Made by a program: the position numbers and the translations under genes
IMG/VR virus record: IMGVR_UViG_3300009509_000053
Coordinates: 1 to 39,365 of that record
Direction: 5' to 3' (one strand)
DNA length: 39,365 nt
From: a virus
Shown here: in pieces, positions 6,830 through 32,026 of the stretch
Position numbering within the stretch: position 1 is the first letter of the stretch
Layout: every line of letters starts with the position of its first letter
Notes under the pieces: generated by a model
What the model was told of the DNA's origin: nothing
The model's database searches: none
The model's input: the letters and a program-made list of their open reading frames with translations, nothing else

Positions 6830-7661
6830 CGCCCGTGGGGGCCTTCACCGTCCGGGCGCGTCCGGACCGGTTCCAGCCCTCCCGGCGGGCTTCAGTCTTA
6901 GCAACGGCGGTGAACCCCGCGGCCTTCAGGGAGGCCCCGTCCTCCTCCGCCAGGGTGTAGGTGATCAGCTTCCGGAACCCCAGGCGGCGGGCGTGGCGGG
7001 CGGCGGCCCCGTAGAGCTGGGAGGCGACGTTCCGGCGGAGGGCGGTCTCCCCCCAGGTACAGCAACGGGTCACCTCCAGGGTCCCCGGTTCCTTCTGGGC
7101 CAGGATCCGGGAGACCGGGCGGCCCACCGTGATCACGCCCACCCGGGAGAACCCGTTCCAGACCGCGATCCCGAACTTCCAGCCCTGGGGGCGTGGGTGG
7201 TGGCGGTGGTGGCGGTCCACCTCCACGAAAACCTCCTCCTGCCACCCCTTCACCCCGGCGCCGGGGTCCTGGACCCAGGGACGACAGCGAACCACGGAGT
7301 CCCCGCGGTCACCCTCCAGGACCACCTCCCGGACCTCCCGGCCCAGGAGGTCCGTCAGGGCGCCCTCCAGGGGGCGGCCGAAGACCGCCTCCCACCCCTC
7401 CAGCCCCACCGCGTCCCGGGCGGCCTGGCAACAGGGGATCCAGTCCAGGTACGACCCGCCGATCACGTCCAGGAGGTCCTCCGCGTCCTCCCCGCAGAAC
7501 GGACAGGGGAGGGCGGCCTCCAGGCCCAGCTCCTCCAGGCCCGCGTCCTCATACTCCACCCCGGGAACCGGCCCCACCCGCTCCACCTCCGGCGCCAGCT
7601 CCGGCTCCGGCTCCACCGGCTCCGGCCTCCCCAGGTTCAGCTTCAGCTTTAGCTGTTTCAC
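6801..7661 (-). CDS. XF1762-type GNAT-like protein with N-terminal zinc site
   Basis: 286 residues. The C-terminal half (about 150-286) has the pattern I recall for the XF1762/Mom-like GNAT group: FGIAVWNGFSRVGVITVGRPV, LEVTRCCTWG, a helix with LYGAAARHARRLGFRKLITYTL, DGASLKAAGF, then KAPTGAKTRWERP. The N-terminal part has CPFC (53-56) and CC (77-78), a likely zinc site. The best-known relative, Mom of phage Mu, modifies adenine in DNA to evade restriction; whether this protein acts on DNA is unknown. I start it at GTG 7661, with GGAGG 6 nt upstream; the frame stays open further up but only inside the previous gene. It lies next to a PP-loop enzyme, suggesting a joint modification role (inference). 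Confidence 0.75.
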   Translation of the reverse strand: MKQLKLKLNLGRPEPVEPEPELAPEVERVGPVPGVEYEDAGLEELGLEAALPCPFCGEDAEDLLDVIGGSYLDWIPCCQAARDAVGLEGWEAVFGRPLEGALTDLLGREVREVVLEGDRGDSVVRCRPWVQDPGAGVKGWQEEVFVEVDRHHRHHPRPQGWKFGIAVWNGFSRVGVITVGRPVSRILAQKEPGTLEVTRCCTWGETALRRNVASQLYGAAARHARRLGFRKLITYTLAEEDGASLKAAGFTAVAKTEARREGWNRSGRARTVKAPTGAKTRWERPL

Positions 7662-7674
7662 GGCGTCCTCCAGT

Positions 7675-8484
7675 CTAGCAACACCAGGTGTCCACGTCCT
7701 GAACCTCCCCGGCCTCCCCGCGCTCCACCGCCTCCCGGACCTCCGCCAGGGTGAGGTCCTGGCGGAACCGGTGGTCGATCCGCGCCTCCAGCTCCACCAC
7801 CTGGTCCAGGAGGTCCCGGTTATAGGACCCGGCCAGGACCAGGGCGGCCCGCGGGGCGAAGATACAGAAAACACAGGACAGGCGCGGCATCCCCAGGTCA
7901 TACGCGCGGTGGTGGGGGACCCCGGACTTCCGGATCCGGTCCCAGACCTCCGCCACCGTCCAGTCCTGGACCGGGAGCCAGTCCCAGACCTCCCGGGTCC
8001 CGGACTTAGTGGAGGCGCGGGCGTTCCGCTTCAGGGCGGCCTTCTTAGCCCGGGAGGGGGACTCCTCCGCCCGGAGACCCAGACAGTTCAGGAGGCGGAA
8101 GGTCCCGCGGTTCCCGGCGGCGGTCCACTCCCGGTGCATAGCGGTGATCACCTTCCCCACCTGGTCCCGCTTCTGATCTGAGGTACAGTAGCGGGTGGAG
8201 TGGCCCGGCCACATCCGGCGGGCCTCCACCTGGTCCAGGAGGTCCCCCTTCTCCCGCTTCACCTTCCGGAAGGGGACCCCGTAGTGGCGGGCCTGAAGCT
8301 CCGCCAGCTCCCCGGTCCCCGCCCACTCCATCCGGCCCAGGTCCGCGTGAACCACCACCACGCGGTCCAGAACCCCCGCCTCCCGCGCCAGCTCCACCAC
8401 CAGGTCCAGCATAGCCTGGGAGTCCTTCCCCGCGGAGGAGTTCACCAGGATCACGTCCCACTGGGTGAGGTCCGGGCGGTCCAT
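7675..8484 (-). CDS. PAPS reductase-family PP-loop enzyme
   Basis: A 269-residue protein of the phosphoadenosine phosphosulfate reductase/DndC-like superfamily, which activates substrates by adenylation and often moves sulfur. The PP-loop is NSSAGKDSQ (15-23). VVVVHADLG (42-50) and LGLRAEES (135-142) are further family motifs. Cysteines C100 (RYCTSDQKRD), C204 and C207 (CVFC) could hold an iron-sulfur cluster, as in plant-type APS reductase and DndC; the C-terminus ends in CC. In phages such proteins are common but mostly uncharacterised; sulfur assimilation, tRNA thiolation and DNA modification are all possible. ATG 8484 overlaps the stop of the preceding gene (ATGA). Confidence 0.85.
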   Translation of the reverse strand: MDRPDLTQWDVILVNSSAGKDSQAMLDLVVELAREAGVLDRVVVVHADLGRMEWAGTGELAELQARHYGVPFRKVKREKGDLLDQVEARRMWPGHSTRYCTSDQKRDQVGKVITAMHREWTAAGNRGTFRLLNCLGLRAEESPSRAKKAALKRNARASTKSGTREVWDWLPVQDWTVAEVWDRIRKSGVPHHRAYDLGMPRLSCVFCIFAPRAALVLAGSYNRDLLDQVVELEARIDHRFRQDLTLAEVREAVERGEAGEVQDVDTWCC

Positions 8485-8846
8485 CAGGCCACCTCCGCCC
8501 AGGGTCCGGACTTCCAGAAGGTCTCCACCCGCCCGTCCGTCACGCGGTACTCCTCCCCGCGGTCCGCGGCGTCCTGGTACAGGGCCCGGAGGTAGTACGC
8601 GGCGCGGAACCGGTTCTCCAGGCGGACCGCGGCGGAGCTGGAGGCGGGATAGTTCCCCGCCTGGAGGGTGATCTCCGTCTCCAGGTGGTCCACCAGGGTC
8701 AGGACCTCCTCCCGGCGCCCGGCGCGGATAGCGCCCAGGAACGCGCGGTCCAGCTCCCGGGACAGGTCCCGGGCCTGGGTGGAACCGCCGGCGACGGCGG
8801 CGGCGTGGGTGAGGTAGAGAACCGCGAACAGAACCAGGGAAGTCAT
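8484..8846 (-). CDS. Small exported or membrane-anchored protein of promoter module 1
   Basis: 120 residues from ATG 8846, chosen because GGAGG lies 5 nt upstream (GGAGGCCCTG then ATG). The first 20 residues (TSLVLFAVLYLTHAAAVAGG) form a hydrophobic signal or anchor. The rest is helical and charged, with no known motif. The frame continues upstream without a stop to GTG 8894, adding the 16-residue leader MSGKKDRKTQATLEAL, which begins where the module 1 promoter should start transcription. If both starts are used, the longer form would carry a basic tag before the hydrophobic segment, which would favour membrane insertion with the N-terminus inside. Confidence 0.7.
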   Translation of the reverse strand: MTSLVLFAVLYLTHAAAVAGGSTQARDLSRELDRAFLGAIRAGRREEVLTLVDHLETEITLQAGNYPASSSAAVRLENRFRAAYYLRALYQDAADRGEEYRVTDGRVETFWKSGPWAEVA

Positions 8847-8893
8847 CAGGGCCTCCAGGGTGGCTTGGGTTTTTCTATCTTTCTTCCCGCTCA

Positions 8894-8952
8894 CATTTAT
8901 ATCTTACCACACGCTAAGAACGTGTCCAGAGGAAAGTGTACAAGAAAGTGTA
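8894..8952 (-). promoter_or_regulatory. Promoter-operator module 1 with leaderless GTG
   Basis: Read on the minus strand: TACACTTT boxes (8945-8952 and 8933-8940, 12 bp apart), -35 TGGACA (8923-8928), 16-bp spacer, -10 TAAGAT (8901-8906), six bases, then GTG at 8894. The palindrome TCTTA-N8-TAAGA (8902-8919) overlaps spacer and -10, so a bound dimer would block polymerase. The GTG sits about where transcription should start. It opens the in-frame leader MSGKKD... of the gene ending at 8484. A short GGGG-TTAG-CCCC hairpin (8957-8968) just upstream may end transcription from the preceding operon. Confidence 0.75.
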
Positions 8953-8997
8953 GAAGGGGGCTAACCCCAGGTAAACGTGGGAAAGAAAGTTAGAGGG

Positions 8998-9504
8998 TCA
9001 CCAGTTCCGGAGGGCCTTCCGGGCGATAGACAGGAGGCGCCGGAGGTCCTTCTCCTCCAGCTCCAGGAGATCCCGGCGGGACAGAACGTCCCCCGCCGGG
9101 ACGGACAGGCGGGCGGTCCAGGACCCGGAGCGGGCCCGGAACTTCTCCACCCGGAGGTGGTTCTCCTTCCGGGCCTGGCCCGCGGGGCGGACCACCGCCC
9201 AACCCCAGTCCGACCACCGGACCGCCAGGAGGCACCGGTCCACGTGGGCGGTCCCCTTCACGATCCCCACCAGGTTCCGCCCGTTCACGAGGCTCATCCG
9301 GCGGAGGCGCGCCACCTCCGCGGCGTCCGCCTCCCGCCGGCCCACCACGGAGAACCCGTCCCGGAGGATCACCCGGTTCCGGTCCAGGACCTCCCGGGCC
9401 TCCCCCGTGGACGAGTCCACGGACCGGACCACCGCGGCCTCCCGCCCACCGTCCGACCCGATCACGGCGATCCACACGTGATCCCCCACGTGGTAGCGCG
9501 TCAT
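8998..9504 (-). CDS. Unknown protein, 168 aa
   Basis: I do not recognise a family. The N-terminal half (MTRYHVGDHVWIAVIGSDGG, then VILRDGFSVVG) looks like a small beta barrel of KOW/Tudor type, often used to bind RNA, DNA or protein. The middle has WSDWGWAVVRPAG and the C-terminus is a basic helix (LLELEEKDLRRLLSIARKALRNW). No membrane segment or cysteine pair. ATG 9504 overlaps the stop of the preceding gene (ATGA). Last gene of the transcript that begins at module 2. Confidence 0.7.
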   Translation of the reverse strand: MTRYHVGDHVWIAVIGSDGGREAAVVRSVDSSTGEAREVLDRNRVILRDGFSVVGRREADAAEVARLRRMSLVNGRNLVGIVKGTAHVDRCLLAVRWSDWGWAVVRPAGQARKENHLRVEKFRARSGSWTARLSVPAGDVLSRRDLLELEEKDLRRLLSIARKALRNW

Positions 9505-9686
9505 TCCACCGCCTCCACCTTCTCCGTGAAGACCGCCCCCGCCAGGGGGTCCCCCACCTCCGCCTTCTTCACCCGGTAGATCTGGAGCTGGCGGTCCGCC
9601 TCCTCCCGCGCGGCCTCCTCCGTGGGGGCGATCCCCCAGGCCCGCGGGAGTCCGTCCGGGTCCAGCTTCATCACCATCACCCTCAT
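9501..9686 (-). CDS. Small unknown protein, 61 aa
   Basis: A 61-residue acidic protein starting with VMKLDPDGLPRAWGIAPTEEAAREEADRQLQIY, which looks like a short beta strand followed by an amphipathic helix. This pattern is common in small phage proteins that lack a known function. ATG 9686 has GGAGGTGACGG directly upstream and overlaps the stop of the HTH gene; its own stop overlaps the next ATG. The coupling on both sides makes it a real gene despite its size. Confidence 0.65.
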   Translation of the reverse strand: MRVMVMKLDPDGLPRAWGIAPTEEAAREEADRQLQIYRVKKAEVGDPLAGAVFTEKVEAVE

Positions 9687-9904
9687 CCCGTCACCTCCTC
9701 CCGGCGGCGGTAGGCCCGGGGGTGGTAGGCGGACAGGTCCTCCCGGCGGATCACCCAGACCGTCCCCACCTTCTGGGCCTTCAGGCGCCCGTCCTGGATA
9801 GCGTAGAGAACCGCCACCCGGGACACCTTCAGGAGGGCGGCCACCTCCGTCACGGACAACAGCGACGGCGGGGCGGCCACCCGCTTCTTACGTGTCTTTC
9901 CCAT
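9683..9904 (-). CDS. Excisionase-family helix-turn-helix DNA-binding protein
   Basis: 73 residues with a basic N-terminus (GKTRKKR) and a single MerR/excisionase-like domain: LLSVTEVAALLKVSRVAVLYAIQDGRLKAQKVGTVWVIRREDLSAY (about 15-60, helix-turn-helix then a small wing). This family includes phage Xis proteins, which help integrase in excision, and also simple transcription regulators. No integrase is visible in the window, so a regulator of the nearby repeated promoters is as likely as an excisionase. ATG 9904 has GGAGG 5 nt upstream and overlaps the previous gene by 17 nt. Confidence 0.85.
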   Translation of the reverse strand: MGKTRKKRVAAPPSLLSVTEVAALLKVSRVAVLYAIQDGRLKAQKVGTVWVIRREDLSAYHPRAYRRREEVTG

Positions 9905-10235
9905 CTTCTCCTCCGTTCTCCGGCGCGTCCTGGACGCACCGGTGGCAAGCGCAAGGTCCCAGGGCGCGGAAACAGATCCGGCGGTCCGTGGCCCACCCCA
10001 CCACGGAATCCCGGATCCGGACCGCCCCCTCCAGGGTCTCCTGATCCACCTCCTTCCCCGCCTCCAGCTTCTCCATCAACCCGTCCACCACCACCTGGAC
10101 CCCGGCGGCCAGGAGGAGGGGGAAGTTAGCGGGCCCCGCGCACTTCTCACAGATAGCCCCCACCCCGGCCCCGTGTTCACACCAGGGACCGCGGCCCAGG
10201 AGGTCCGTCTCCTTCAGGGGGAACCCCCGGGTCAT
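9888..10235 (-). CDS. Unknown cysteine-rich protein, 115 aa
   Basis: Starts at ATG 10235, which overlaps the stop of the preceding gene and has GGTGGAGGG upstream; the frame extends to 10271 only inside that gene. The N-terminus has WCEHGAGVGAICEKC and the C-terminus ICFRALGPCACHRC, four or more cysteines that could form a zinc site at each end, joined by a helical middle (LLAAGVQVVVDGLMEKLEAG). Probably an intracellular zinc-binding protein; no family recognised. Confidence 0.7.
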   Translation of the reverse strand: MTRGFPLKETDLLGRGPWCEHGAGVGAICEKCAGPANFPLLLAAGVQVVVDGLMEKLEAGKEVDQETLEGAVRIRDSVVGWATDRRICFRALGPCACHRCVQDAPENGGEDGKDT

Positions 10236-10924
10236 CCCTCCACCTTCCGCTTCTCCAGGAGGGCCTGGCAACGCTTACAGGTCACCGCCTCCGGGTCCTC
10301 CGTCAGGGAGGGCTCCCGCCGGCGGAAGGAGTAGCCCCGGCGGGTCTTCCGGCCCGCCAGGCACGCGGCCACCCGCCGGGTCCGCCCGTCCTTCTCCTCC
10401 TTCTCCGCCAGGTGGCGGATCCACGCCTTCCGGCGCTTCTCCTCCGGCGGCGTGGCGGCCTCCACCTCCGCGCGGCGCTTCTCCTGGGGGGAGAACTCCG
10501 CCCCGGCGGGGCGGAACCGGGCGCCGGACAGGCACGTTCCCCCGCGGGACCCCTCCATCTCCAGGACCCCCGCCAGGACCTCCTCCCGGAGGGCGCGCCT
10601 CACGTGGTCCAGGAGCGGGCGCCCGTTCAGGCCCCGGAACCGCAACCGGGAGAACGGGAGGAGGCCCTCCCCCAGCTCCCCCTCCGGGAGTCCGTCCAGG
10701 ATCTCCTGGCCCCGGGCGCGGAGGCGGCGCTCCACATCCGTGGCGGTGAAGTAGTAGGTGGACCCGTGGAAGTCCCGCCCCGCCAGGCGGGACTCCAGGG
10801 CCCGGGCCCAGATCCACCTCCAGGCCCGGCGGACCTCCTCCGGGACGTTCACCCGGACCGCGTTCCCGGGTCCGGCCCGTCCGGAGGGCCTCCGCCTCCG
10901 CTTCTCCCCAAGTGTCAACTTCAT
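10232..10924 (-). CDS. Unknown basic protein, 230 aa
   Basis: A 230-residue, strongly basic protein. After an Arg-rich start (GEKRRRRPSGRAGPG) comes a segment with STYYFTATDVERRLRARGQEIL, which looks like a small alpha/beta domain, then a helical region rich in Lys, Arg and Glu, and a C-terminal CKRC. The composition suggests nucleic acid binding, but no motif is decisive. ATG 10924 has a GGAGGTGAACGG ribosome site. A terminator-like hairpin lies just upstream at 10944-10963, so expression may depend on read-through from module 2. Confidence 0.7.
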   Translation of the reverse strand: MKLTLGEKRRRRPSGRAGPGNAVRVNVPEEVRRAWRWIWARALESRLAGRDFHGSTYYFTATDVERRLRARGQEILDGLPEGELGEGLLPFSRLRFRGLNGRPLLDHVRRALREEVLAGVLEMEGSRGGTCLSGARFRPAGAEFSPQEKRRAEVEAATPPEEKRRKAWIRHLAEKEEKDGRTRRVAACLAGRKTRRGYSFRRREPSLTEDPEAVTCKRCQALLEKRKVEG

Positions 10925-10943
10925 CCGTTCACCTCCGTCTAAA

Positions 10944-10963
10944 AGCGGGCCCCGGAGGGCCCG
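10944..10963 (-). terminator. Terminator-like hairpin with T run
   Basis: A perfect 8-bp stem, GCGGGCCC (10944-10951), CGGA loop, GGGCCCGC (10956-10963). Read leftward the stem is followed by TTTT (complement of the A's at 10940-10943), the form of an intrinsic terminator. It lies between the stop of the DUF6011-like gene and the start of the 230-residue gene on the same strand, so it probably attenuates rather than ends the operon. Confidence 0.6.
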
Positions 10964-10969
10964 CGGGTT

Positions 10970-11431
10970 CTAGATCCGCCCCGCGCACTCCGGGCCCAGG
11001 CCCAGGCGGAGGGACTCCGGGACGGTCAGCTCCCGCCCGCACCGTCCGCACCGGCCCGAGTGGTGGACGGACAGGGCCTCCGGGAGGTCCCGTCCGGAGT
11101 TCAGGCGCTCCCAGAACCAGGTCCAGGCCCGCGCGGAGGGCGCCTCCGCGGAGACCCGGGACTTCCGGCTCCGGCGGTAGTCCCCGGAGTCCAGGAACAG
11201 GGTCCCCAGGAACGTGTAGTCCGTGGTGTTCTCCGGCCCGGTCAGGACGGACACGAAGCGGACCCGCGCCTCCCAGTCCCGGGTAAGTCCCCCGCGCTCC
11301 GTCTCCTTCCGCGGCGCCTCCACCCGGAACGTGAACCGCCCGCCCGTGGCGCGGTTCTCCAGGGTGACCACCGCGTTCCCCGCCAGGAGGTAGTCCCGGA
11401 CGTGGGCCCGCTCCAGCTCCGTGCTAGTCAT
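10970..11431 (-). CDS. DUF6011-like zinc-ribbon protein
   Basis: 153 residues. The C-terminus CGRCGRELTVPESLRLGLGPECAG matches the DUF6011 pattern 'CgrCgr.Lt.peS...GiGP.Ca', a three- or four-cysteine zinc ribbon found at the ends of many phage and actinobacterial proteins. The N-terminal 100 residues (FTFRVEAPRK, TDYTFLGTLFLDSGDY) form a beta-rich domain often found with DUF6011, possibly single-strand nucleic acid binding, but this is not proven. ATG 11431 overlaps the end of the preceding gene by a few bases. Confidence 0.75.
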   Translation of the reverse strand: MTSTELERAHVRDYLLAGNAVVTLENRATGGRFTFRVEAPRKETERGGLTRDWEARVRFVSVLTGPENTTDYTFLGTLFLDSGDYRRSRKSRVSAEAPSARAWTWFWERLNSGRDLPEALSVHHSGRCGRCGRELTVPESLRLGLGPECAGRI

Positions 11432-11687
11432 CTGCCACCTCCTCCGCCGGGACCAGGACCAGGCGCCCGTGGTTAGAGGAACCGGGGCGGACCACCCGCA
11501 CCCGCGCCCACCGCTTCAGGGGGACCCCGGACAGGTGGGCGGAGACCACCACGCCCACGGTCTCCGTCTCCGACGCGGCCAGGACCGGGGAGGTGGGGGC
11601 GGGACCGCCCAGGGGGTTCAGGGTGACCACCTTCCCGATAGTCACGGCGAAGGTCAGGAACTTCACGATCGTGCCAACGGCGTCCAC
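11424..11687 (-). CDS. Small protein of promoter module 2
   Basis: 87 residues from GTG 11687, which has AGGAGGCC upstream. The first 25 residues (VDAVGTIVKFLTFAVTIGKVV) are moderately hydrophobic, possibly a membrane-associated helix. The remainder is beta-rich (ETVGVVVSAHLSGVPLKRWARVRVV). No family recognised. The frame is open up to GTG 11726, giving the leader MSGKKETQNQEAP before the Shine-Dalgarno start; the leader is one of five related ones in the window. Confidence 0.6.
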   Translation of the reverse strand: MDAVGTIVKFLTFAVTIGKVVTLNPLGGPAPTSPVLAASETETVGVVVSAHLSGVPLKRWARVRVVRPGSSNHGRLVLVPAEEVADD

Positions 11688-11725
11688 GGGGGCCTCCTGG
11701 TTCTGGGTTTCTTTCTTCCCGCTCA

Positions 11726-11761
11726 CATTATCATCTTAGCGCGTGGGAACATATCTGTCCA
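11726..11761 (-). promoter_or_regulatory. Promoter-operator module 2 (divergent copy)
   Basis: Minus strand: -35 TGGACA (11756-11761), 17-bp spacer, -10 TAAGAT (11733-11738), six bases, GTG 11726. The operator is degenerate here: TCTTA (11734-11738) is kept but the far half reads GAACA (11747-11751). The TACACTTT box is not in its usual place. An ACACTTT in the opposite orientation follows at 11772-11778. The loss of one operator half predicts weaker or different control of this copy. Confidence 0.65.
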
Positions 11762-11764
11762 TAG

Positions 11765-11982
11765 GCTAACATACACTTTTTCATACTCCGGCGTTATCAC
11801 TCAGCTAATAGTGAAAAGGGCCCGCGGAGCTGGATCCAGCTCCGGCGCCTCATTCAGGGCGTCCAGGAGGCGCCAGGAGGCGCCGGAGGTTCAGGGGGTC
11901 CCAGGGTGGCGGGGCGGGGCGTTCCGGCGCCTGGCGGGGCGCCTGGGGGCCCGGGCGGGCCCCCTGGGGGCGGGTCCGGGGG
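11765..11982. other. Non-coding spacer with palindrome and hairpin
   Basis: No gene is supported here. It contains a perfect 20-bp palindrome CGGAGCTGGATCCAGCTCCG (11825-11844), two tandem copies of AGGAGGCGCC (11865-11884), and a hairpin with an 8-bp stem, GGGGGCCC-GGGC-GGGCCCCC (11945-11964), just after the stop of the next gene on the minus strand, which probably ends that transcript. The A+T-richer start (11766-11820) is upstream of module 2 and may hold activator sites. Confidence 0.5.
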
Positions 11983-12399
11983 TCAGTCCATCCGGCCCCA
12001 CTCCCACCCCACGGTGGGCTTCAGCTCCTCCACCTCCACCCCGTTCTCCTCCGCGGCGACCTTCATCCGGCTCCGCTCCACGCGGGAGGTGGGGCGGGGG
12101 AGGGCGTCCAGGGCGGCCTGGAGGATCCCCGCGGCCCGGTCCCGGCACCACGAGCAGTCCGCCTGACCCGGCGGGGAGACCACCACCAGGGCCCGGGCGA
12201 TCAGCTTCCGGGAGGGGATATAGGGGACGGTCAGGCCCGCGCCCAGGACGCACGTCCCGCGGTCCCCGCCGGAGGCGGCCAGGTCCGCGCGCCACGCCTG
12301 GAACGCCTCCTCCCGGGCGCCGGCCAGCTTCTCCAGGTCCGCGTCCTGGAGGGCCAGGACCAGGGGTCCGGTCAGCCCGTACATTCTGACGACTCTCAT
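11983..12399 (-). CDS. Unknown protein, 138 aa
   Basis: 138 residues; starts at ATG 12399 with overlap to the preceding stop (ATGA) and GGAGGTGGGAA upstream. The N-terminal half is alpha/beta (RVVRMYGLTGPLVLALQDADLEKL), the middle has CVLGAGLTVPYIPSRKLIARALVVVSPPG followed by CSWC, and the C-terminus is helical, ending in GWEWGRMD. The CSWC pair could bind a metal. No family recognised. Last gene of the transcript that begins at module 3; a strong hairpin follows its stop. Confidence 0.65.
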   Translation of the reverse strand: MRVVRMYGLTGPLVLALQDADLEKLAGAREEAFQAWRADLAASGGDRGTCVLGAGLTVPYIPSRKLIARALVVVSPPGQADCSWCRDRAAGILQAALDALPRPTSRVERSRMKVAAEENGVEVEELKPTVGWEWGRMD

Positions 12400-12614
12400 T
12401 TCCCACCTCCGATCAGGGCGGTCAGGTTCTCCGCGTCCTCCACCGGGACCTCCAGGCGGCGAAGCTCCGCCTGGTGGCGGACCAGGAGGGCCTCCAGGTC
12501 ACCCTGGAGGGCGTCCAGGTCCCGCGCCTCCACCGGGTGACCGTCCTCCCGGGCCTCCTCCGACGCCAGCTCCGCCGAGTAGGACAGGGCGGAGATCAGG
12601 ATCCACGCCTTCAT
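12396..12614 (-). CDS. Small helical protein, 72 aa
   Basis: 72 residues from ATG 12614 with GGAGGTGAACTG upstream. The N-terminus (KAWILISALSYSAELASEEA) is a short hydrophobic helix that could be a signal or membrane-edge helix, followed by an acidic helix and coiled-coil-like segment (LDALQGDLEALLVRHQAELRRLE). No family recognised. A GC-rich hairpin separates it from the preceding gene of the operon. Confidence 0.6.
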   Translation of the reverse strand: MKAWILISALSYSAELASEEAREDGHPVEARDLDALQGDLEALLVRHQAELRRLEVPVEDAENLTALIGGGK

Positions 12615-12635
12615 CAGTTCACCTCCGTCAGTTCT

Positions 12636-12657
12636 GGGGGCCCCCGCGGGGGCCCCC
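12636..12657. terminator. GC-rich intergenic hairpin
   Basis: GGGGGCCCCC (12636-12645), GC, GGGGGCCCCC (12648-12657): a self-complementary element that folds into a stem of 8-9 bp. It lies between two same-strand genes and lacks a T run in the leftward direction, so it may act as a pause, an attenuator or a weak terminator rather than a full intrinsic terminator. Confidence 0.5.
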
Positions 12658-12669
12658 GGGTTTACGGTT

Positions 12670-13017
12670 CTAGTCCCGCTCCGCGGCGCCCAGGAGCGCC
12701 TCCACGGAGATCACCACCGCGGGGGCGGCCTGGGCCCACTTCAGGGCGCCGAAGGAGAACAGGTCCTCCAGCTCCGTCTCCGCCCGGAGGTCCCCGCCCG
12801 GGGCGAAGACTTCCACGCGGGCCCGGTAGATCCCGCGCTCCCGGCAGTCCACCCGCGCGGAGACCAGGGCCTCCGTCAGGGTCCCGTAGCGGAGGACCTC
12901 CGGGGAGGGCTGTCCGAAGATCTCCCCGCCGTCCACCTGGGTCAGGTGGTCAAAGCCCACCTGGCGGTTCCCGTAAAGACAGATAGAAACCAGGGACTTC
13001 TTCGACTTCCGGCTCAT
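12670..13017 (-). CDS. Small protein of promoter module 3
   Basis: 115 residues from ATG 13017 (AAGGAGGCCCAG upstream). It starts basic (SRKSKKS), then VSICLYGNRQVGFDHLTQVDGGEIFG and a helical stretch TLTEALVSARVDCRERGIYRARVEVFAPGG, suggesting a small alpha/beta fold. No family recognised. The frame is open back to GTG 13062, adding the leader MSGKKDSQNPRKEAQ. Because the leader is rich in Lys and Asn like the others, the tagged form would differ mainly in charge. Confidence 0.65.
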   Translation of the reverse strand: MSRKSKKSLVSICLYGNRQVGFDHLTQVDGGEIFGQPSPEVLRYGTLTEALVSARVDCRERGIYRARVEVFAPGGDLRAETELEDLFSFGALKWAQAAPAVVISVEALLGAAERD

Positions 13018-13061
13018 CTGGGCCTCCTTCCGGGGGTTCTGGCTATCTTTCTTCCCGCTCA

Positions 13062-13108
13062 CATTTATATCTTAGCACGTGGTAAGAACCTGTCCAGAGG
13101 AAAGTGTA
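13062..13108 (-). promoter_or_regulatory. Promoter-operator module 3
   Basis: Minus strand: TACACTTT (13101-13108), -35 TGGACA (13091-13096), 16-bp spacer, -10 TAAGAT (13069-13074), six bases, GTG 13062. The operator (13070-13087) reads TCTTAGCACGTGGTAAGA on the plus strand, an 18-bp palindrome with only one mismatched pair, centred on CACGTG. Homology with module 4 extends about 50 bp further upstream (a GAAGTGAA/AAAGTGAA stretch, then a GGAAGGTGG...GGGATTACAGG-like run), so these two copies duplicated most recently. Confidence 0.8.
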
Positions 13109-13161
13109 CGAGGAAGTGAAAAAAGTGGGAAGGTGGTGGGATTACAGGAGAAAAAAGTGGG

Positions 13162-13725
13162 CTAGAAGTGGGGGTCCGTGTGGTGCTCCCGGAGGCCCAG
13201 GACCACGCGGCCCGCCCCGCGGGCCCCCTTCAGGCGGTAAACCCCGTCCCGGCGCCGGGTGGCCACGTATTCCCGCCCGTCCGGGTCCTCCACGTAGAGG
13301 AACCCGCCGTTCCCCGTGGGGCGCCGGCGGTCCGCGCGGAGGCGGATCCGGTGACCGGAGGGGGAGACCTCGACGACCGTGGCGGCGGTCTGGTCCGACC
13401 AGTGGTAGACCGTGGCGCCCATCCCCACCACGGGCTTCAGCTCCCGCTCCAGCTCCTCCAGGACGCGGACCTCCTCCTCCCCGGTGACCGGGGCGGTCCC
13501 GCGGTGGAGGCCCCGGAGGGAGGCCCCGGCGCCCGGGATCTCCGCGTCCAGGACGCGGTGGGCCCCGGCCTCCGTGGCGGCCAGGGCGGAGAAGCGCCCG
13601 AAGACCGCCTCCATCCCGGGCGCCCAGACCGCGGTCCAGCGGTAGAGGGGGAGACCCGCGCGGCGGGCCTCCCGGATCTGGGCCTCCCGCTCCCGGCCCG
13701 TCCTGTTCAGGTTCGACGCGTGCAT
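13162..13725 (-). CDS. Conserved phage protein of unknown function, 187 aa
   Basis: Starts at ATG 13725 with GGAGGTGAACCT upstream; the frame extends further but only through the preceding gene. The C-terminal 90 residues contain GMGATVYHWSDQTAATVVEVSPSG and end in GLREHHTDPHF. This matches a pattern I recall in many phages, 'ysDr.AyTVveV.s......lG.R..Y.DP.F', an uncharacterised domain with probable beta structure. The N-terminal half is helical (REREAQIREARRAGLPLY, EEVRVLEELERELKPVV). Function unknown. Confidence 0.7.
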   Translation of the reverse strand: MHASNLNRTGREREAQIREARRAGLPLYRWTAVWAPGMEAVFGRFSALAATEAGAHRVLDAEIPGAGASLRGLHRGTAPVTGEEEVRVLEELERELKPVVGMGATVYHWSDQTAATVVEVSPSGHRIRLRADRRRPTGNGGFLYVEDPDGREYVATRRRDGVYRLKGARGAGRVVLGLREHHTDPHF

Positions 13726-13761
13726 AGGTTCACCTCCCGGGGGCGCGGCCCCCTTCTCCTG

Positions 13762-13789
13762 GCCCCCCGCGTTCCAGGACGCGGGGGGC
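13762..13789. terminator. Strong intergenic hairpin
   Basis: A 10-bp perfect stem, GCCCCCCGCG (13762-13771), loop TTCCAGGA, CGCGGGGGGC (13780-13789), in the gap between the 156- and 187-residue genes. It lacks a clear leftward T run. A second GC hairpin (about 13739-13753) lies just after it. Probably a pause or attenuation point within the module 4 transcript. Confidence 0.5.
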
Positions 13790-13813
13790 GGGTCTGATCT
13801 GACACCACCCGGA

Positions 13814-14284
13814 TCAGCGGGCGTCCTGAAGACAGGACGGACACACCCCGTCCTCATCCACCGGGTCCCCGTGGTCCGGACAGGCCAGCTCCAGCTCATC
13901 CGCGAACGGGATCCCCTCCGCCCCGGACAGGTAGCGGACGCGGACCGGGTAGCGCCCGGACCCGTGGCGGGAGTGGACCTCCGCCACCACCGCCAGCTTC
14001 CCGAACGCCACCACCTGGTCCCCCGGCTCCACGCGCCACCGCCAGCCCTCCGCCGGCCCCGCCAGGATCTCCTCCTGGTGGACCTGGAGCTGGACCTGGA
14101 GCTTCTCCTCCGCGTAGGCCACCAGCTCCTCCAGGTGGAGGCCCTGGGCCTCCCACCCGCGGGGGAGGAAGGACAGCTTCCACATCCCCCCGGACTCCAC
14201 CAACCACCACCGCCCGCGGGGGTCCGCCCACCGGCGGCCCTTCTCCGGCTTCTGTTCAGCCCTGAACAACGTCACGGTACACAC
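13814..14284 (-). CDS. Unknown protein with C-terminal zinc motif, 156 aa
   Basis: 156 residues from GTG 14284, which has GGAGGTGATCCC upstream. Begins CTVTLFRAEQKPEKGRRW and has GRWWLVESGGMWKLSFLPRGW, an acidic helix with QVQLQVHQEEIL, then GDQVVAFGKLAVVAEVHS (beta barrel-like) and ends in CPDHGDPVDEDGVCPSC, a probable zinc knuckle (C-x(12)-C-x2-C with a His). No family recognised. It may bind RNA, DNA or a host protein; this is speculative. Confidence 0.65.
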   Translation of the reverse strand: MCTVTLFRAEQKPEKGRRWADPRGRWWLVESGGMWKLSFLPRGWEAQGLHLEELVAYAEEKLQVQLQVHQEEILAGPAEGWRWRVEPGDQVVAFGKLAVVAEVHSRHGSGRYPVRVRYLSGAEGIPFADELELACPDHGDPVDEDGVCPSCLQDAR

Positions 14285-14305
14285 GGGATCACCTCCTTCT
14301 GGGTT

Positions 14306-14608
14306 TCAGTAAACGCTCCAGGAACCAGGGACGGGAGGAACCTCCGCGGAGGCGGGGAGGATCCGGTCCGTGTCCGGGTGAAAGACCACCCCCAGGACGT
14401 TCCCGCTCCGCTCCCCCGCGGCGTAGGCCCGCCGGACCGCCTCCTCCGCCAGGCGGTGATCCGCCTCCGTGATCTCACCGTGGGCGCCGGCCCGCGCCGG
14501 GTTAGCCTCCACGTCCCACGACCCGTCCGGGGCCTGGGTGAACGTGTGGCCCAGGTCCGCCAGGGCCTTCTGGTAAACGGTAAGGATCAGGACGGTCAGG
14601 TTCTCCAC
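14306..14608 (-). CDS. Unknown protein, 100 aa
   Basis: 100 residues from GTG 14608 with AAGGAGACC upstream, the second gene of the module 4 transcript. The N-terminus (ENLTVLILTVYQKALADLGHTF) is helix, and EITEADHRLAEEAVRRAYAAGERSGNVLGVVFHPDTDRIL suggests an alpha/beta fold. No motifs, no membrane segment. Its sequence resembles no family I can name. Confidence 0.6.
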   Translation of the reverse strand: MENLTVLILTVYQKALADLGHTFTQAPDGSWDVEANPARAGAHGEITEADHRLAEEAVRRAYAAGERSGNVLGVVFHPDTDRILPASAEVPPVPGSWSVY

Positions 14609-14620
14609 GGCGGTCTCCTT

Positions 14621-14812
14621 CTAGTTCTTCACCAGGACGTGAACGGCGGTCAGGTTCTCAGTCCGGAGCCCGGCGGCCTCCACCTCACTCCGGAACCGGT
14701 CCGCGGCCTCCACGGTCCGGAACGCCCAGGTCTCCGTGGACTGGGGGTTCAGGTCCGCCCGCTTCCCGTTCAGCTCCGCGGCCCGCGCCTTCCGGTTCTT
14801 CAGGTTCTTCAC
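14621..14812 (-). CDS. Small protein of promoter module 4, 63 aa
   Basis: 63 residues from GTG 14812 (AAGGAGGCCGCC upstream). Basic N-terminus (KNLKNRKARAAELNGKRADLN), then a beta-alpha-beta-like end (TWAFRTVEAADRFRSEVEAAGL... VHVLVKN). No family recognised. The frame is open to GTG 14854, adding the leader MSGKKDNRNQKEAA. With such a short protein, the 14-residue leader would change size and charge noticeably. Confidence 0.6.
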   Translation of the reverse strand: MKNLKNRKARAAELNGKRADLNPQSTETWAFRTVEAADRFRSEVEAAGLRTENLTAVHVLVKN

Positions 14813-14853
14813 GGCGGCCTCCTTCTGGTTCCGGTTATCTTTCTTCCCGCTCA

Positions 14854-14912
14854 CATTTATATCTTAGCACGTAGTAAGAACCTGTCCAGACAAAAGTGTA
14901 CGAGAAAGTGAA
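14854..14912 (-). promoter_or_regulatory. Promoter-operator module 4
   Basis: Minus strand: a CACTTT repeat (complement of 14905-14912), TACACTTT (14893-14900), -35 TGGACA (14883-14888), 16-bp spacer, -10 TAAGAT (14861-14866), six bases, GTG 14854. Operator 14862-14879 (plus strand TCTTAGCACGTAGTAAGA) has both half sites intact and one extra centre mismatch relative to module 3. Confidence 0.8.
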
Positions 14913-14948
14913 AAAAGTGGGAAGGTGGCGGGATTACAGGAAAGAAAG

Positions 14949-15146
14949 TTAGCGGCGGGGGGTCAGGAGTTCATCCGCCAGCTCCCGGAGGGCCTCCTCC
15001 AGGCGGGCCTGATCCGCCGGAGACCACCGATCCGGGCGGTCCTCCTCCCCGTGGGAGGGCTCAAAGGGCCACCCGGCGGACAGGAGGCCCAGGACGGACT
15101 CCCCCACCAGGCGGCGGGCCCGGCGTTTAGCCTCCCGGCGGGTCAC
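14949..15146 (-). CDS. Small basic protein, 65 aa
   Basis: 65 residues from GTG 15146, which overlaps the stop of the previous gene (GTGA). Starts TRREAKRRARRLVGESVLGLL, an Arg-rich helix, then a Pro/Asp-rich loop (WPFEPSHGEEDRPDRW) and an acidic helix (ARLEEALRELADELL). The charge pattern suggests a helical hairpin, perhaps RNA or protein binding. No family recognised. Confidence 0.55.
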   Translation of the reverse strand: MTRREAKRRARRLVGESVLGLLSAGWPFEPSHGEEDRPDRWSPADQARLEEALRELADELLTPRR

Positions 15147-15421
15147 CGCGGGGGTCCTCCGCCGGCCAGCCCCAGCTCCCGGCGGGCGCGCTCCAGGAGG
15201 TCCGCGTCCGCGGAGAACTCCAGCTCCACCAGCTCCTCCGCGGTCTGGGCGGCGACCTCCAGGGCCTCCGCGTGGTCCTCCTGGAGGGCCTCCAGGGCGT
15301 CCACCAGGGCCCCCAGTCCCAGGTCCCCGTCCCAGCACCCGACCCCCATAGTGGCCCGGGCCTCCTGGGCGGCCGACGCCAGGACGTTCACGGCGGCCAG
15401 GACATCCAGCTTCCTACGCAT
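15143..15421 (-). CDS. Helical acidic protein, 92 aa
   Basis: 92 residues from ATG 15421 with GGAGGTGACGTT upstream; the open frame continues further but only over the neighbouring gene. Mostly helical (KLDVLAAVNVLASAAQEARAT, LVDALEALQEDHAEALEVAAQTAEELVELE), with CWDGDLGLG between the helices. It resembles small phage proteins that form helical bundles. No function can be assigned. Confidence 0.6.
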   Translation of the reverse strand: MRRKLDVLAAVNVLASAAQEARATMGVGCWDGDLGLGALVDALEALQEDHAEALEVAAQTAEELVELEFSADADLLERARRELGLAGGGPPR

Positions 15422-15434
15422 AACGTCACCTCCC

Positions 15435-15450
15435 GGGCCCCGGAGGGCCC
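15435..15450. terminator. Short intergenic hairpin
   Basis: GGGCCC-CGGA-GGGCCC, the same stem and loop core as the terminator-like hairpin at 10944-10963 but shorter and without a T run. It lies between two same-strand genes of the module 5 transcript. Confidence 0.35.
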
Positions 15451-15459
15451 CGTTCAGGT

Positions 15460-15720
15460 TCAGCGGGTCCGCCCCACCAGGGCGTCCCAGCAACGCGCCA
15501 CGGTCCGGCGGGGAACCCCCCGGCAGGACCACAGGAGGAGGAGGGCGTCCTGGGCGCGGTCCGCGTCCACGTCCTCCGTCCAGACCCCCCCGTTCACCCA
15601 CAGGGTCCACAGGAACGGACCACCGGCGGGATCCGGGCGGACCTCCGCCTCCACCAGGAGGTCCTCCAGCCCCCGGTGGCGCCGGCGGATCACGTAGCGG
15701 GCGGCCCGCGTCCTACTCAC
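15460..15720 (-). CDS. Unknown protein, 86 aa
   Basis: 86 residues. Probable start GTG 15720, which overlaps the end of the preceding gene; the ribosome site is weak, and the frame extends to 15762. Sequence begins SRTRAARYVIRRRHRGLEDLLVEAEV, then FLWTLWVNGGVWTEDVDADRAQDALLLLW and a basic end. The middle matches a beta strand, Asp/Ala-rich turn and helix pattern seen in small phage proteins. No family recognised. Confidence 0.55.
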   Translation of the reverse strand: MSRTRAARYVIRRRHRGLEDLLVEAEVRPDPAGGPFLWTLWVNGGVWTEDVDADRAQDALLLLWSCRGVPRRTVARCWDALVGRTR

Positions 15721-16021
15721 CGCCCACCGCCTTCCAGAACCCGCACCCCTCCGGGTGGTCACAGTCCGCGGAGATCCCGTCCCCCGGGAGGCACCCGCAC
15801 CCCGGACACGCCTCCGGGTTCAGCTCCTCCGCCAGCTCCTCCGCCAGCTCCAGGGCCTCCTCCTCCTCCTCCACCTGGGCCACCACCACCGGGAGACCCG
15901 TCTCCGGGTCCTCCTGGGTGAGGTTCAGGACGAAGAACTCCACCCCGCCGTCGCGGGTCTGGAGGCGGTCCACGCGGACCGTGGTGGTGGAGAAAACGGT
16001 GGAAAGGGTGGAGCTGGACAT
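15713..16021 (-). CDS. Small acidic protein of promoter module 5 with cysteine-rich end
   Basis: 102 residues from ATG 16021 (CTGGAGGCCACC upstream). N-terminus SSSTLSTVFSTTTVRVDRLQTRDGG is Ser/Thr rich, followed by a beta stretch, a very acidic helix (VEEEEEALELAEELAEELN) and CPGCGCLPGDGISADCDHPEGC, a likely zinc site of four to five cysteines plus His. The frame is open back to GTG 16072, giving the leader MSGNGNSGTQNPNLEAT, the most divergent of the five. Confidence 0.65.
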   Translation of the reverse strand: MSSSTLSTVFSTTTVRVDRLQTRDGGVEFFVLNLTQEDPETGLPVVVAQVEEEEEALELAEELAEELNPEACPGCGCLPGDGISADCDHPEGCGFWKAVGGE

Positions 16022-16071
16022 GGTGGCCTCCAGGTTGGGGTTTTGGGTTCCGCTGTTTCCGTTCCCGCTCA

Positions 16072-16118
16072 CATTTATATCTTAGCACGTGGTAAGAACC
16101 TGTCCAGTAAAAAGTGTA
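16072..16118 (-). promoter_or_regulatory. Promoter-operator module 5
   Basis: Minus strand: TACACTTT (16111-16118), -35 TGGACA (16101-16106), 16-bp spacer, -10 TAAGAT (16079-16084), six bases, GTG 16072. Operator 16080-16097 is identical to module 3. Divergent from the rightward operon at 16215. Confidence 0.8.
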
Positions 16119-16214
16119 TGCGGATCTGTAGAAAAGTGATATGAGCTGGAAATGACTACATTCTTAGTTCGTCAGGCTCATGCAGGCTAGAACAGACAGA
16201 CGGAGGTGAAGCAC
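16119..16214 (+). promoter_or_regulatory. Rightward control region of the plus-strand operon
   Basis: No gene. Candidate promoter: TTAGTT (16164-16169), 18-bp spacer, TAGAAC (16188-16193), with transcription expected near 16200, just before GGAGG (16202-16206). TTCTTAG at 16161-16167 matches the operator half site of the five modules, so the same factor could bind here. GGCTCATGC (16175-16183) recurs twice at 18.3 kb. The -35/-10 call is weak. Confidence 0.4.
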
Positions 16215-16952
16215 GTGGGAAAGGCGTACAAAGCCCCGAAGAACGGCGATCGAACTCGATACGTGTCCCGCCACGCGGTGGCCCGCCTCCGGGAGCGGGC
16301 GGAGGTCCCGGCCCACCTGGACGACGACTCCCTGTCCCGCGTCCTGGACGACGCGGTGGTGGCGGCCTACTCCCTGGGGAAGAACGAGAACGTGGTGGAC
16401 GAGCACGGCGACCCGGCGGACCTGGTGGACATCTCCGGGACCCTGGACGGACTGACCGCCCGGGGCCAGGTCTTCGCCCTGGTGAAGCGGAACGCGCGGG
16501 AGAACAGCGAGCGGGAGGAGGCGGTGGTGACCGTCCTGGGGGACCGCTCCGCGGAGCTGGTCCGCCGGGAGACCCGGGAGGGCGCCGGGTTCGGGGTGAT
16601 GGCGGAGGCCCTCCGCGGGGTGAGGGTCCCGGAGGCGCCGGAACGTCCGCGGAACTGGATCCAGGACCCGGAGCCCCCGCCCCCGGCGGACCCGCCGGAG
16701 GATCGCGGGTGGGCCTCCGCGCCGGACGCGAGGAAGCTCCTCGAGGAGGCCCGGGAGCGGGCCCCGGCGGAACTCCGGGCGGAGGCCCACGCGGCCCGGG
16801 CGGACTACGTGGTGATCCGGGCGGCGGACGCGGGGGCCCTGAAGCGCCTGTCCCGGGAGGAGGCCCTGGAGGTCCTCCGGGCGACCCCGGACGCGACCCT
16901 CCTCCGCGTGGTCCCCTTCCGCGTGACCGTGACCGTGGACCTGGACGGATGA
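16215..16952 (+). CDS. Unknown protein, first gene of rightward operon
   Basis: About 245 residues. I use GTG 16215, nine bases after the GGAGG; a GTG at 16206 overlaps the ribosome site itself. The N-terminal 70 residues contain RYVSRHAVARLRERAEVP, a His/Arg pattern seen in small domains of phage proteins ('RHAveRyreR'), function unknown to me. The middle is helical, then a Pro-rich linker (EPPPPADPPED) and a C-terminal beta-rich part (YVVIRAADAGALKRLS, VVPFRVTVTVDLDG). Its stop overlaps the next ATG. As the first gene of an operon divergent from the repeated modules, it is a candidate regulator. Confidence 0.7.
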   Translation: MGKAYKAPKNGDRTRYVSRHAVARLRERAEVPAHLDDDSLSRVLDDAVVAAYSLGKNENVVDEHGDPADLVDISGTLDGLTARGQVFALVKRNARENSEREEAVVTVLGDRSAELVRRETREGAGFGVMAEALRGVRVPEAPERPRNWIQDPEPPPPADPPEDRGWASAPDARKLLEEARERAPAELRAEAHAARADYVVIRAADAGALKRLSREEALEVLRATPDATLLRVVPFRVTVTVDLDG

Positions 16953-17668
16953 GCTCGATCCGGGAGATCCGCCGGTTCCAGCGGCGGGCCCTGGAGGAGC
17001 GCCTGGTGGCCAGGATCGCGGAGGCGGCCTCCCACGGGACGGAGGCGGAGCTGGAGGAGGCCCGGGCCAGTTACGCCGAGTTCATGGCGGCCCTCCGCCG
17101 GGAGAAGGTGGCGGCGGAGTGGAGGCGGACGGAGGAGGCGCGGACCTGGGGACGGAGGGGGCGCGGCCCGCGCCGGAGGGAACCGCCCCCGGCCCCCGTC
17201 CCGGCGGAGCCCCCGGAGGATCCCGCGGCCCGCCTCCGGCGCCTGGAGGTGACCCACGTCCTCCGCCACCCCCTCCCCGGTCCGCGGTGGCCCGCGTTCT
17301 TCGCCCCGTCGGACCCGGGCGCCCGGGCCTTCCTCCGGGAGGTCCTCCTGGACGTGGGCCCGTTCCACCGGGACCTCCTCCGCGCGGAGGTGATCCACCT
17401 CCTGGCGCGCTCCCGCCCCCGCGGGCGGAACGCCCTCGCGGCGGCCCTGGGCTCCCACCGGGCGGAGCTGGACCCGGTGGTGGAGGACCTCCTGGCGCGG
17501 AACGCCCTCGCCCGGAACCCCCGGAGCGGGGCCCTCACCGCCTCCGCCTGGGTGAAGAACCTCATCCGCGGTCTGGAGGGCCTCCCCCCGGAGACCGTCT
17601 CCCCGGTCCGGCCCCCGCCGGCGGACCTGGGTCCACGGAAGATCAGGAACGAAAGGATGTCCGAATGA
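16949..17668 (+). CDS. Unknown protein with possible C-terminal winged helix
   Basis: 239 residues from ATG 16949 (ATGA overlap with the previous stop). N-terminal helical and charged (IREIRRFQRRALEERL), then a Pro/Arg-rich linker (about 68-95). The C-terminal region 145-200 (AEVIHLLARSRPRGRNALAAALGSHRAELDPVVEDLLARNALARN) has the spacing of a winged helix-turn-helix: helix, helix with AAALGSHRAEL as recognition helix, then a short wing. It could be a transcription factor or a replication-initiation protein. Assignment rests on pattern, not on a named family. Confidence 0.65.
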   Translation: MSSIREIRRFQRRALEERLVARIAEAASHGTEAELEEARASYAEFMAALRREKVAAEWRRTEEARTWGRRGRGPRRREPPPAPVPAEPPEDPAARLRRLEVTHVLRHPLPGPRWPAFFAPSDPGARAFLREVLLDVGPFHRDLLRAEVIHLLARSRPRGRNALAAALGSHRAELDPVVEDLLARNALARNPRSGALTASAWVKNLIRGLEGLPPETVSPVRPPPADLGPRKIRNERMSE

Positions 17669-17979
17669 GCGTTAAAAAGCGCCTGGAGAAGACCCTGGAG
17701 ACCTTCCCCCTGGACTCGCGCGCGGCCCTGGAACGCCTCGTGGAGGCGGTGGACGCGGACCTGGACGAGCTGGCGGACGCCACGGACTCCGCGGTGGACC
17801 AGCTCCGCCGCGGGGTCGTCACCCTGACCGAAGGGGTCCTCGCCCTGGGCGACGGCGTCCTCCGCCTGGAGGCCCGTCTCCGCGCGGTCACGCGCTCCGC
17901 GACGCGGGCGGACCCGGGCCTGGTGGCGGCGCTGGCCCGCCTCCGGGGCGAGTCCAGCGAGTCCGGCCCCCGCGAATGA
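17665..17979 (+). CDS. Helical coiled-coil protein, 104 aa
   Basis: 104 residues from ATG 17665, overlapping the previous stop; AAAGGATG lies upstream. Sequence is almost entirely helical with heptad-like spacing (LDELADATDSAVDQLRRGVVTLTEGVLALGDGVLRLEARLRAV), suggesting an oligomeric coiled coil. Last gene of the rightward operon. May oligomerise with its neighbours; no function known. Confidence 0.7.
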   Translation: MSVKKRLEKTLETFPLDSRAALERLVEAVDADLDELADATDSAVDQLRRGVVTLTEGVLALGDGVLRLEARLRAVTRSATRADPGLVAALARLRGESSESGPRE

Positions 17980-32022: not shown

Positions 32023-32026
32023 GAGA

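Follow-up and report, generated by a model that had tools for sequence, protein, structure and literature searches.

A repeated promoter cassette with predicted leaderless and Shine-Dalgarno starts kept in frame in a clade of uncultured phages

In the 39,365-nt stretch of phage DNA analysed here (the window), five genes on the minus strand are each preceded by a copy of the same cassette: a sigma70-like promoter, a predicted leaderless start codon, a short open leader and, in frame with the first, a second start with its own Shine-Dalgarno (SD) sequence. Comparison with related phages shows that selection has preserved the reading frame from one putative start to the other. We consider it quite probable that the element is a dual-initiation cassette, in which both starts would be used and selection would act on the register rather than on the leader amino acids.

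Five exact TAAGAT-N6-GTGAGCGGG sites were found on the minus strand, with the GTG at 8894, 11726, 13062, 14854 and 16072. All five have the same order: TGGACA, a spacer of 16 or 17 nt, TAAGAT, 6 nt, GTG, a leader of 39-51 nt containing GGAGGCC-NNN, and a second start in frame. This agrees with the first-pass annotation of the DNA, which had described a five-copy promoter with a leaderless GTG, an in-frame leader and an SD start. A search allowing up to three mismatches revealed no match elsewhere in the window (chance expectation at 3 mismatches 0.54, at most 3 in 100 shuffles). A sigma70 scan of positions 6800-19000 (approximately 12 kb) returned exactly five TGGACA-16/17-TAAGAT promoters, where 0.2 were expected.

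The cassettes and their genes, all on the minus strand, are numbered from the highest coordinate. The -35 elements (TGGACA) were located by the sigma70 scan, the -10 elements (TAAGAT) by exact match and by the scan. Cassette 1 has its -35 at 16101..16106 and its -10 at 16079..16084, with TGC ahead making an extended -10. Its 51-nt in-frame leader MSGNGNSGTQNPNLEAT (16022..16072) opens with the predicted leaderless GTG 16072 and contains GGAGG (16027..16031), 5 nt ahead of the second start, ATG 16021. Gene 1 (15713..16072) encodes 119 aa from the GTG and 102 aa from ATG 16021; a family match was sought for it and none was found. In cassette 2 (-35, 14883..14888; -10, 14861..14866) the 42-nt in-frame leader MSGKKDNRNQKEAA (14813..14854) runs from the predicted leaderless GTG 14854 through the SD AGGAGG (14818-14823) to GTG 14812, giving gene 2 (14621..14854) 77 or 63 aa. 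Cassette 3 (-35, 13091..13096; -10, 13069..13074) has a 45-nt in-frame leader, MSGKKDSQNPRKEAQ (13018..13062), with the predicted leaderless GTG 13062, the SD AGGAGG (13023-13028) and the second start ATG 13017; gene 3 (12670..13062) is 130 aa long from the GTG and 115 aa from the ATG. The spacer of cassette 4 (-35, 11756..11761; -10, 11733..11738) is 17 nt. Its 39-nt in-frame leader MSGKKETQNQEAP (11688..11726) joins the predicted leaderless GTG 11726 to GTG 11687, which is preceded by AGGAGG (11693-11698), and gene 4 (11424..11726) has 100 aa from the former and 87 aa from the latter. Cassette 5 (-35, 8923..8928; -10, 8901..8906) carries the 48-nt in-frame leader MSGKKDRKTQATLEAL (8847..8894), with the predicted leaderless GTG 8894, GGAGG at 8852-8856 and the second start ATG 8846, so that gene 5 (8484..8894) encodes 136 or 120 aa. 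A PAPS-reductase-like gene (7675-8484) comes after gene 5.

The five leaders (48, 39, 45, 42 and 51 nt for the GTGs at 8894, 11726, 13062, 14854 and 16072, respectively) are free of stops and run in frame into an ATG or GTG. In their variable part the frame-0 codon-usage score exceeded that of dinucleotide shuffles (P = 0.0014). The first-pass annotation had noted that the frame survived five length changes; the frame stands, and the count is corrected to four, as five copies represent four changes. The corresponding chance probability is (1/3)^4 = 1/81, or (1/3)^5 = 1/243 if the GTG is specified beforehand. As evidence for a kept frame, the window alone is suggestive and no more.

A clade of relatives, all of them metagenomic contigs of uncultured phages, was recovered with a portal alignment. 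No relatives were found by a DNA similarity search of annotated phages, a search for the exact promoter in viral contigs, a single-sequence terminase scan or tblastn with gene 5, and the divergence in a first terminase alignment was too high for scanning. Scans with PAPS reductase and DUF6011 identified phages that have a gene in common with the window and lack this cassette. Two of these gene-sharing phages, G001 and G002, have repeated promoters of other kinds and were used for comparison. An Rfam search gave no family matches. Genome contigs searched with the terminase yielded distant matches only (27-37%), and hence no host or prophage. An archaeal host was considered since the longest terminase match was ANMV-1 (26%). 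A bacterial host is more likely in view of the sigma70-like promoters and of an amidase/peptidoglycan-binding protein encoded in the window.

Six related phages contributed about 25 more cassettes, bringing the total to about 30 with the window. In nearly all of them an ATG or GTG stands six bases past TAAGAT, though the intervening hexamer varies. The -10 hexamer thus lies approximately 6-7 nt upstream of a start codon in 5/5 window copies and in nearly all cassettes of the relatives, the arrangement typical of leaderless genes; the position tolerates exchange of GTG (window) for ATG or GTG (relatives) and opens a frame with coding periodicity. A blind rule applied to the cassettes having both starts placed 22/22 in frame; they come from seven phages, the window among them, and have ten different leader lengths. 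Cassettes inside one phage are copies of each other, and the 22 are not independent trials. Ten lengths require at least nine net changes of triplet size, for which (1/3)^9 = 5e-5. None of 21 leaders contained a frame-0 stop. In 18 non-redundant leaders, taken without the start codon and the last three codons, GC content at the three codon positions was 38/48/70%, and 0 of 20,000 random frame assignments were as extreme.

The helicase orthologues reveal how the register was retained. The distance from the start to a homologous segment is 14 nt in one leader and 10 nt in the other, and that from the segment to the ATG is 22 and 23 nt; the -4 and +1 indels cancel, and the phages use two different frames for the homologous stretch with the register intact. 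Simple triplet slippage as the source of the triplet length changes was ruled out, because these leaders differ by -4 and +1. The first-pass annotation had held that stops or frameshifts in the leaders of relatives would speak against it. These were looked for, and the proposal withstood the check: the sole frameshifted leader had also lost its leaderless ATG. In a cassette of phage G003, ATC stands in place of the ATG and the 20-nt leader is out of frame, with the SD-led body of 51 codons intact (GC3 98%). This is a single example, in which an assembly error is possible. At G010:70668 ATA replaces the ATG, yet the frame is retained.

Some cassettes have one start only. Four have no second SD start (G009 10749 and 19296, G010 5408 and 4517), one is without a leaderless codon, and G003 7961 and G010:15368 are SD-only. 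The helicase orthologue L216 (61%), which lies outside the clade, lacks the cassette, and its gene opens with the SD start. The one-start cassettes and the L216 orthologue give comparative support to each start by itself, and both starts are therefore probably used where both occur. The SD core was present in 21/21 leaders, with hardly any variation in its spacing, compared with 3.1 in shuffles; the comparison is partly circular as the leaders were defined by the SD. In the same 21/21 leaders the SD is properly spaced ahead of the second start on the same predicted transcript as the 5' start codon.

The following mechanism would account for these features. The promoter, with its TTGACA-like -35, a spacer of 16-17 nt and a mostly extended -10 (TGnTAAGAT), would, judging from its spacing, start the transcript exactly at the ATG/GTG. 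Ribosomes would initiate there in leaderless mode and read the short hydrophilic leader directly into the gene, while the SD inside the leader would direct initiation on the same mRNA at the second in-frame start, the beginning of the gene proper. The two routes would give two proteins per gene, differing by an N-terminal extension of approximately 6-17 residues (35 in one case). The register between the starts, not the leader amino acids, would be held by selection, because an out-of-frame leaderless start would waste ribosomes on a useless peptide overrunning the SD start. The most likely purpose would be to keep expression robust in any state of the host initiation machinery. More tentatively, the cassettes might serve a phage-wide programme in which translation switches between 70S leaderless and canonical 30S/SD initiation as infection alters the host machinery, with the isoform ratio following; we think this possible and rather doubtful. 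If true, the clade would have placed leaderless starts in register with the SD starts of many genes.

If the genes started at the GTG/ATG alone, with a variable N-terminus, the SD and the second start would be relics of an earlier leader. Cassettes without a second SD start exist, and phage G002, which has two genes in common with the window, carries at least ten repeated promoters with a predicted leaderless ATG and no SD. Against this, the SD core is retained through leader length changes and indels, GGAGGCC-NNN-start is exact in the five window leaders, which have otherwise diverged, and the SD-only cassettes and the L216 orthologue indicate that the second start can work alone; we therefore regard a leaderless-only reading as unlikely. 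The leader could instead be the ordinary 5' UTR of copied promoters, its 5' GTG/ATG being incidental or a mere ribosome dock, a role that it has in some E. coli mRNAs, with no fused protein made. The 1/81 of the window by itself is insufficient against this reading, and phage G001, which has the PAPS reductase in common with the window, is by its sequence a true example of an ordinary 5' UTR behind copied promoters: its SD-led leaders of 25-29 nt have no frame relation to the gene and no conserved opening start codon, and begin with a GUC(U/C)UCGGAC-like element. The leaders of the clade do have a frame relation (22/22, with compensating indels), are stop-free and GC3-periodic, and exchange ATG and GTG at one position, and some of the genes have a leaderless start only, all of which makes the 5' UTR reading very unlikely. 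That the pattern arose by chance, or as an artefact, through promoter duplication in a GC-rich sequence poor in stop codons is hardly credible: the cassettes are paralogous, hence not independent, but seven phages have the same register over ten leader lengths and with compensating changes that are not triplets.

A further reading, compatible with dual starts, would make the leader a functional N-terminal tag (for targeting, interaction or stability) that the cassette adds to many proteins. Leader peptides within a phage are alike across unrelated genes (MSGKK four times; MSKTTESK three times and MNKTTESK; MTTTKKT three times), and every one is strongly hydrophilic, with many K/T/E/N/S/R residues. 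However, the within-phage likeness is explained by cassette copying, no leader sequence is common to different phages (MSGKK.., MSKTTESK, MTTTKKT.., MNDGGNE), and the homologous helicase DNA is read in two frames. Orthologous leaders differ by just four substitutions (three synonymous, one not), too few for a test. The translated leader and the genuine second SD start proposed in the first-pass annotation are supported by the ATG/GTG exchange, the kept frame, the compensating indels, the periodicity and the one-start cassettes, whereas a conserved functional tag is not: a tag is weakly supported and quite improbable, and it is the register that is preserved.

With dual initiation, these cassettes would amount to a repeated comparison, set up by nature, of the leaderless and SD modes on one message, in which either start is knocked out in some members. 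The comparative evidence suggests selection against 5'-terminal start codons that are out of frame. Annotation is concerned as well: these phage genes would have two genuine N-termini, where gene finders give one.

Two proteins from alternative in-frame starts of one gene are known from the lambda S holin/antiholin. The start-associated sequences of cluster K mycobacteriophages, suggested earlier as an analogy, are likewise short repeated elements, found close to several phage gene starts; they lie in the ribosome-binding region and do not consist of a promoter, a leaderless codon and a translated leader. The analogy does not apply, and they are, as far as can be judged, not a relative. A 5' ATG or GTG suffices for leaderless initiation in mycobacteria and is also required for it (PMC4633059). 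The leaderless mycobacterial genes and the leaderless genes of Deinococcus-Thermus, with a -10 TANNNT adjoining the ORF (PMC12340547), resemble the cassettes in the -10, the short gap and the first-codon ATG/GTG; there it is usually the sole start, whereas the phage cassettes add an in-frame SD-led start after 6-17 codons. Shigella virF (PMC5101355) also yields two N-terminal isoforms from in-frame starts, one via a leaderless mRNA, which makes the shorter form; the phage leaderless start would make the longer one, both forms would come from a single promoter and a single mRNA, and the layout is copied before many unrelated genes. E. coli mRNAs with a 5'-terminal AUG and a downstream SD start (Beck, Fleming and Janssen 2016, PMC4965119), in which 70S ribosomes bind the 5' AUG and translate from it, are similar in that a single mRNA is both leaderless and SD-led. 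The genes chosen there were out of frame (bicistronic), single host genes and without a repeated cassette, whereas the phage starts are in frame with a register conserved across phages, and offer the in-frame class for direct test where published tests of 5'-terminal AUGs covered out-of-frame cases. Each initiation mode is already known; the repeated in-frame combination of a leaderless and an SD start across a phage clade appears to be new.

The window, an IMG/VR virus record of 39,365 bases, has a GC content of 71%, and its genes are strongly coding (GC3 92%). The five promoter copies reported in the first-pass annotation proved to be exact: TAAGAT, six nucleotides and then GTGAGCGGG, all on the minus strand, with leaderless start codons at 16072, 14854, 13062, 11726 and 8894. 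The leaders (51, 42, 45, 39 and 48 nt, respectively) are, as had been claimed, open and in frame with an ATG or GTG led by a Shine-Dalgarno (SD) sequence. A plain sigma70 scan covering the 12 kb around the cassettes returned just these five promoters. In frame 0 the variable part of the leader has a coding score above that of dinucleotide shuffles (P = 0.0014, the five copies being related and not independent). Taken by itself the window is suggestive, with a frame argument of 1/81 (or 1/243). Elsewhere the phage carries a large ribonucleotide reductase (23700-26453; its best matches are, by annotation, class II or B12-dependent enzymes) and SbcC-like, metallophosphatase, RuvC-like, RecA-like and DNA methylase genes. 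A tRNA-Arg (CCG) called by ARAGORN at 32002-32092 overlaps predicted coding genes, and is probably false or a remnant.

No close relative was found among annotated phages. A clade of metagenomic viral contigs was reached via portal protein alignment and enlarged by terminase alignment, promoter pattern and helicase alignment; portals are mostly 64-67% identical, terminases about 70%. Cassettes, partly paralogous, are present in G009 (3300032397_000005), G006 (3300036761_003779), G005/G004 (3300017963_004945, 3300017971_000499), G003 (3300017987_000287), G010 (3300017963_000014) and G014 (3300009082_000738). Their common promoter is a TTGACA-like -35, 16 nt, (TGn)TAAGAT, N6 and (A/G)TG, and the reversed pattern, used as control, had zero matches in the records of these relatives. 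The leaderless codon is GTG throughout in the window and mostly ATG in the relatives, and the preceding hexamer varies (ATAAAT, GATAAT, GAGAGT, ATTATT, TATATT, GAGGAT). Since the codon is kept as a start while neighbouring bases change, the position behaves like a start codon.

The second start was defined by a frame-blind rule, as the first start codon within 75 nt having an SD core 3-9 nt upstream; leaders thus have an SD by definition, which makes the SD statistic partly circular. Wherever the leaderless codon is intact and the rule finds a second start, the two are in frame (22/22 cassettes, in part related copies). Ten leader lengths occur (18, 21, 24, 33, 36, 39, 42, 45, 48 and 51 nt), requiring at least nine changes, a conservative count that already gives (1/3)^9 = 5e-5. 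Frame-0 stops were absent from the 21 unique leaders, 20 of which have a stop in frame +1. With the start codon and last three codons of each leader left out, GC by codon position was 38/48/70% in 18 non-redundant leaders, and none of 20,000 random frame assignments was as extreme.

Some cassettes lack one start. G003 has a paralogous pair, ATGAACGACGGAGGGAACGAG|ATG and ATCAACGACGGAGGGACGAG|ATG, in which the copy without the leaderless ATG is also out of frame; what follows its SD start is still an unbroken frame of 51 codons (GC3 98%). In G010 the leader at 70668 stays in frame, yet the leaderless position reads ATA. Leaderless-only cassettes occur in G009 (10749 and 19296) and G010 (5408 and 4517), and an SD-only cassette precedes a recombinase-like protein (by eye) at G010:15368.

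The simplest account is that transcripts would begin at the A/GTG and be translated from there by the leaderless route, and that the same transcripts would be translated from the SD start as well. Dual use of the starts is inferred from sequence, as would be any regulatory switching from one to the other. Irrespective of purpose, if ribosomes in any case initiate at a start codon placed at the 5' end, a leader kept in frame would give a usable protein and an out-of-frame leader none, which would explain the register, the freedom of the leader sequence and why both losses coincide in G003.

The proposal that the leader serves as a conserved peptide tag was not borne out by the helicase orthologues (called UvrD-like by eye from sequence). 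Their leaders measure 36 nt in G006 and G014, 33 in G009 and 105 in G010. In G006 a homologous stretch (GAGTCCC..AAAGGAG) lies 14 nt from the leaderless start and 22 nt from the ATG; in G009 the two distances are 10 and 23 nt, so that changes of -4 and +1 cancel. The stretch is read in two frames (AGT CCC AAA AAG GAG in G006, GTC CCA GAA AGG AGT in G009); it is therefore the register that is conserved, not the amino acids. Orthologous leaders differ by four substitutions only: ACA/ACG and ACC/ACA, synonymous, and ACT/ATT, nonsynonymous, between G006 and G014, and CCG/CCT, synonymous, between G009 and L213. This agrees with coding, the number being too small for a test. Outside the clade the closest helicase orthologue, L216 (61%), lacks a cassette and starts at an SD-led ATG, and its ordinary upstream region holds a similar AGAAAGGAG stretch. 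The helicase leader thus appears to be a former UTR, made coding by the arrival of a leaderless promoter upstream. An ordinary 5' UTR of copied promoters was rejected as an explanation of the leaders. An example of that kind is the comparator phage G001, whose leaders are 25-29 nt long and have no conserved start codon and no frame relation. Within the stretch examined, G001 has only PAPS reductase in common with the window.

Other promoter elements were observed. In the window copies the -35 is immediately preceded by a TACACTTT(T/C) element (at about 8929-8945, 13097-13110 and 14889-14902, among others), which is inverted in the 11726 copy and recurs in G003 (L155 near 7961 and 6912); G009, G006 and G010 have a CTTTTCC-like stretch in its place. 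It is a possible activator or UP-like site. Spacer and -10 form a near-palindrome, TTACCACGTGCTAA (e.g. 13070-13084), near-symmetric also in the 8894 copy despite its divergence (TTAGCGTGTGGTAA) and represented by CACGTG in G003; a repressor controlling all copies could use it as an operator.

Repeated promoters occur in the comparator phages too. G002 (L016, IMGVR_UViG_3300010362_000016) has an array of TTGACAAC..ACGTACGTGNTATA followed by ATG after 6-7 nt; its genes are apparently leaderless, without SD, and one is the orthologue of the window DUF6011 gene (10970-11431). G001 (L009, IMGVR_UViG_3300021511_000005) has seven TTGACAT-NN-TCCGC-N5-GGTCA copies; in the six whose leaders were read, a GUC(U/C)UCGGAC-like sequence, possibly a UUCG-type hairpin near the mRNA start, is followed by GGAGGCTC before the ATG.

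As far as could be judged, the cassettes bear no relation to mycobacteriophage start-associated sequences, the analogy drawn initially. Escherichia coli has mRNAs with a 5'-terminal AUG plus an SD start, from which the authors picked out-of-frame cases; removing the 5' AUG altered downstream expression to varying degrees (PMC4965119).
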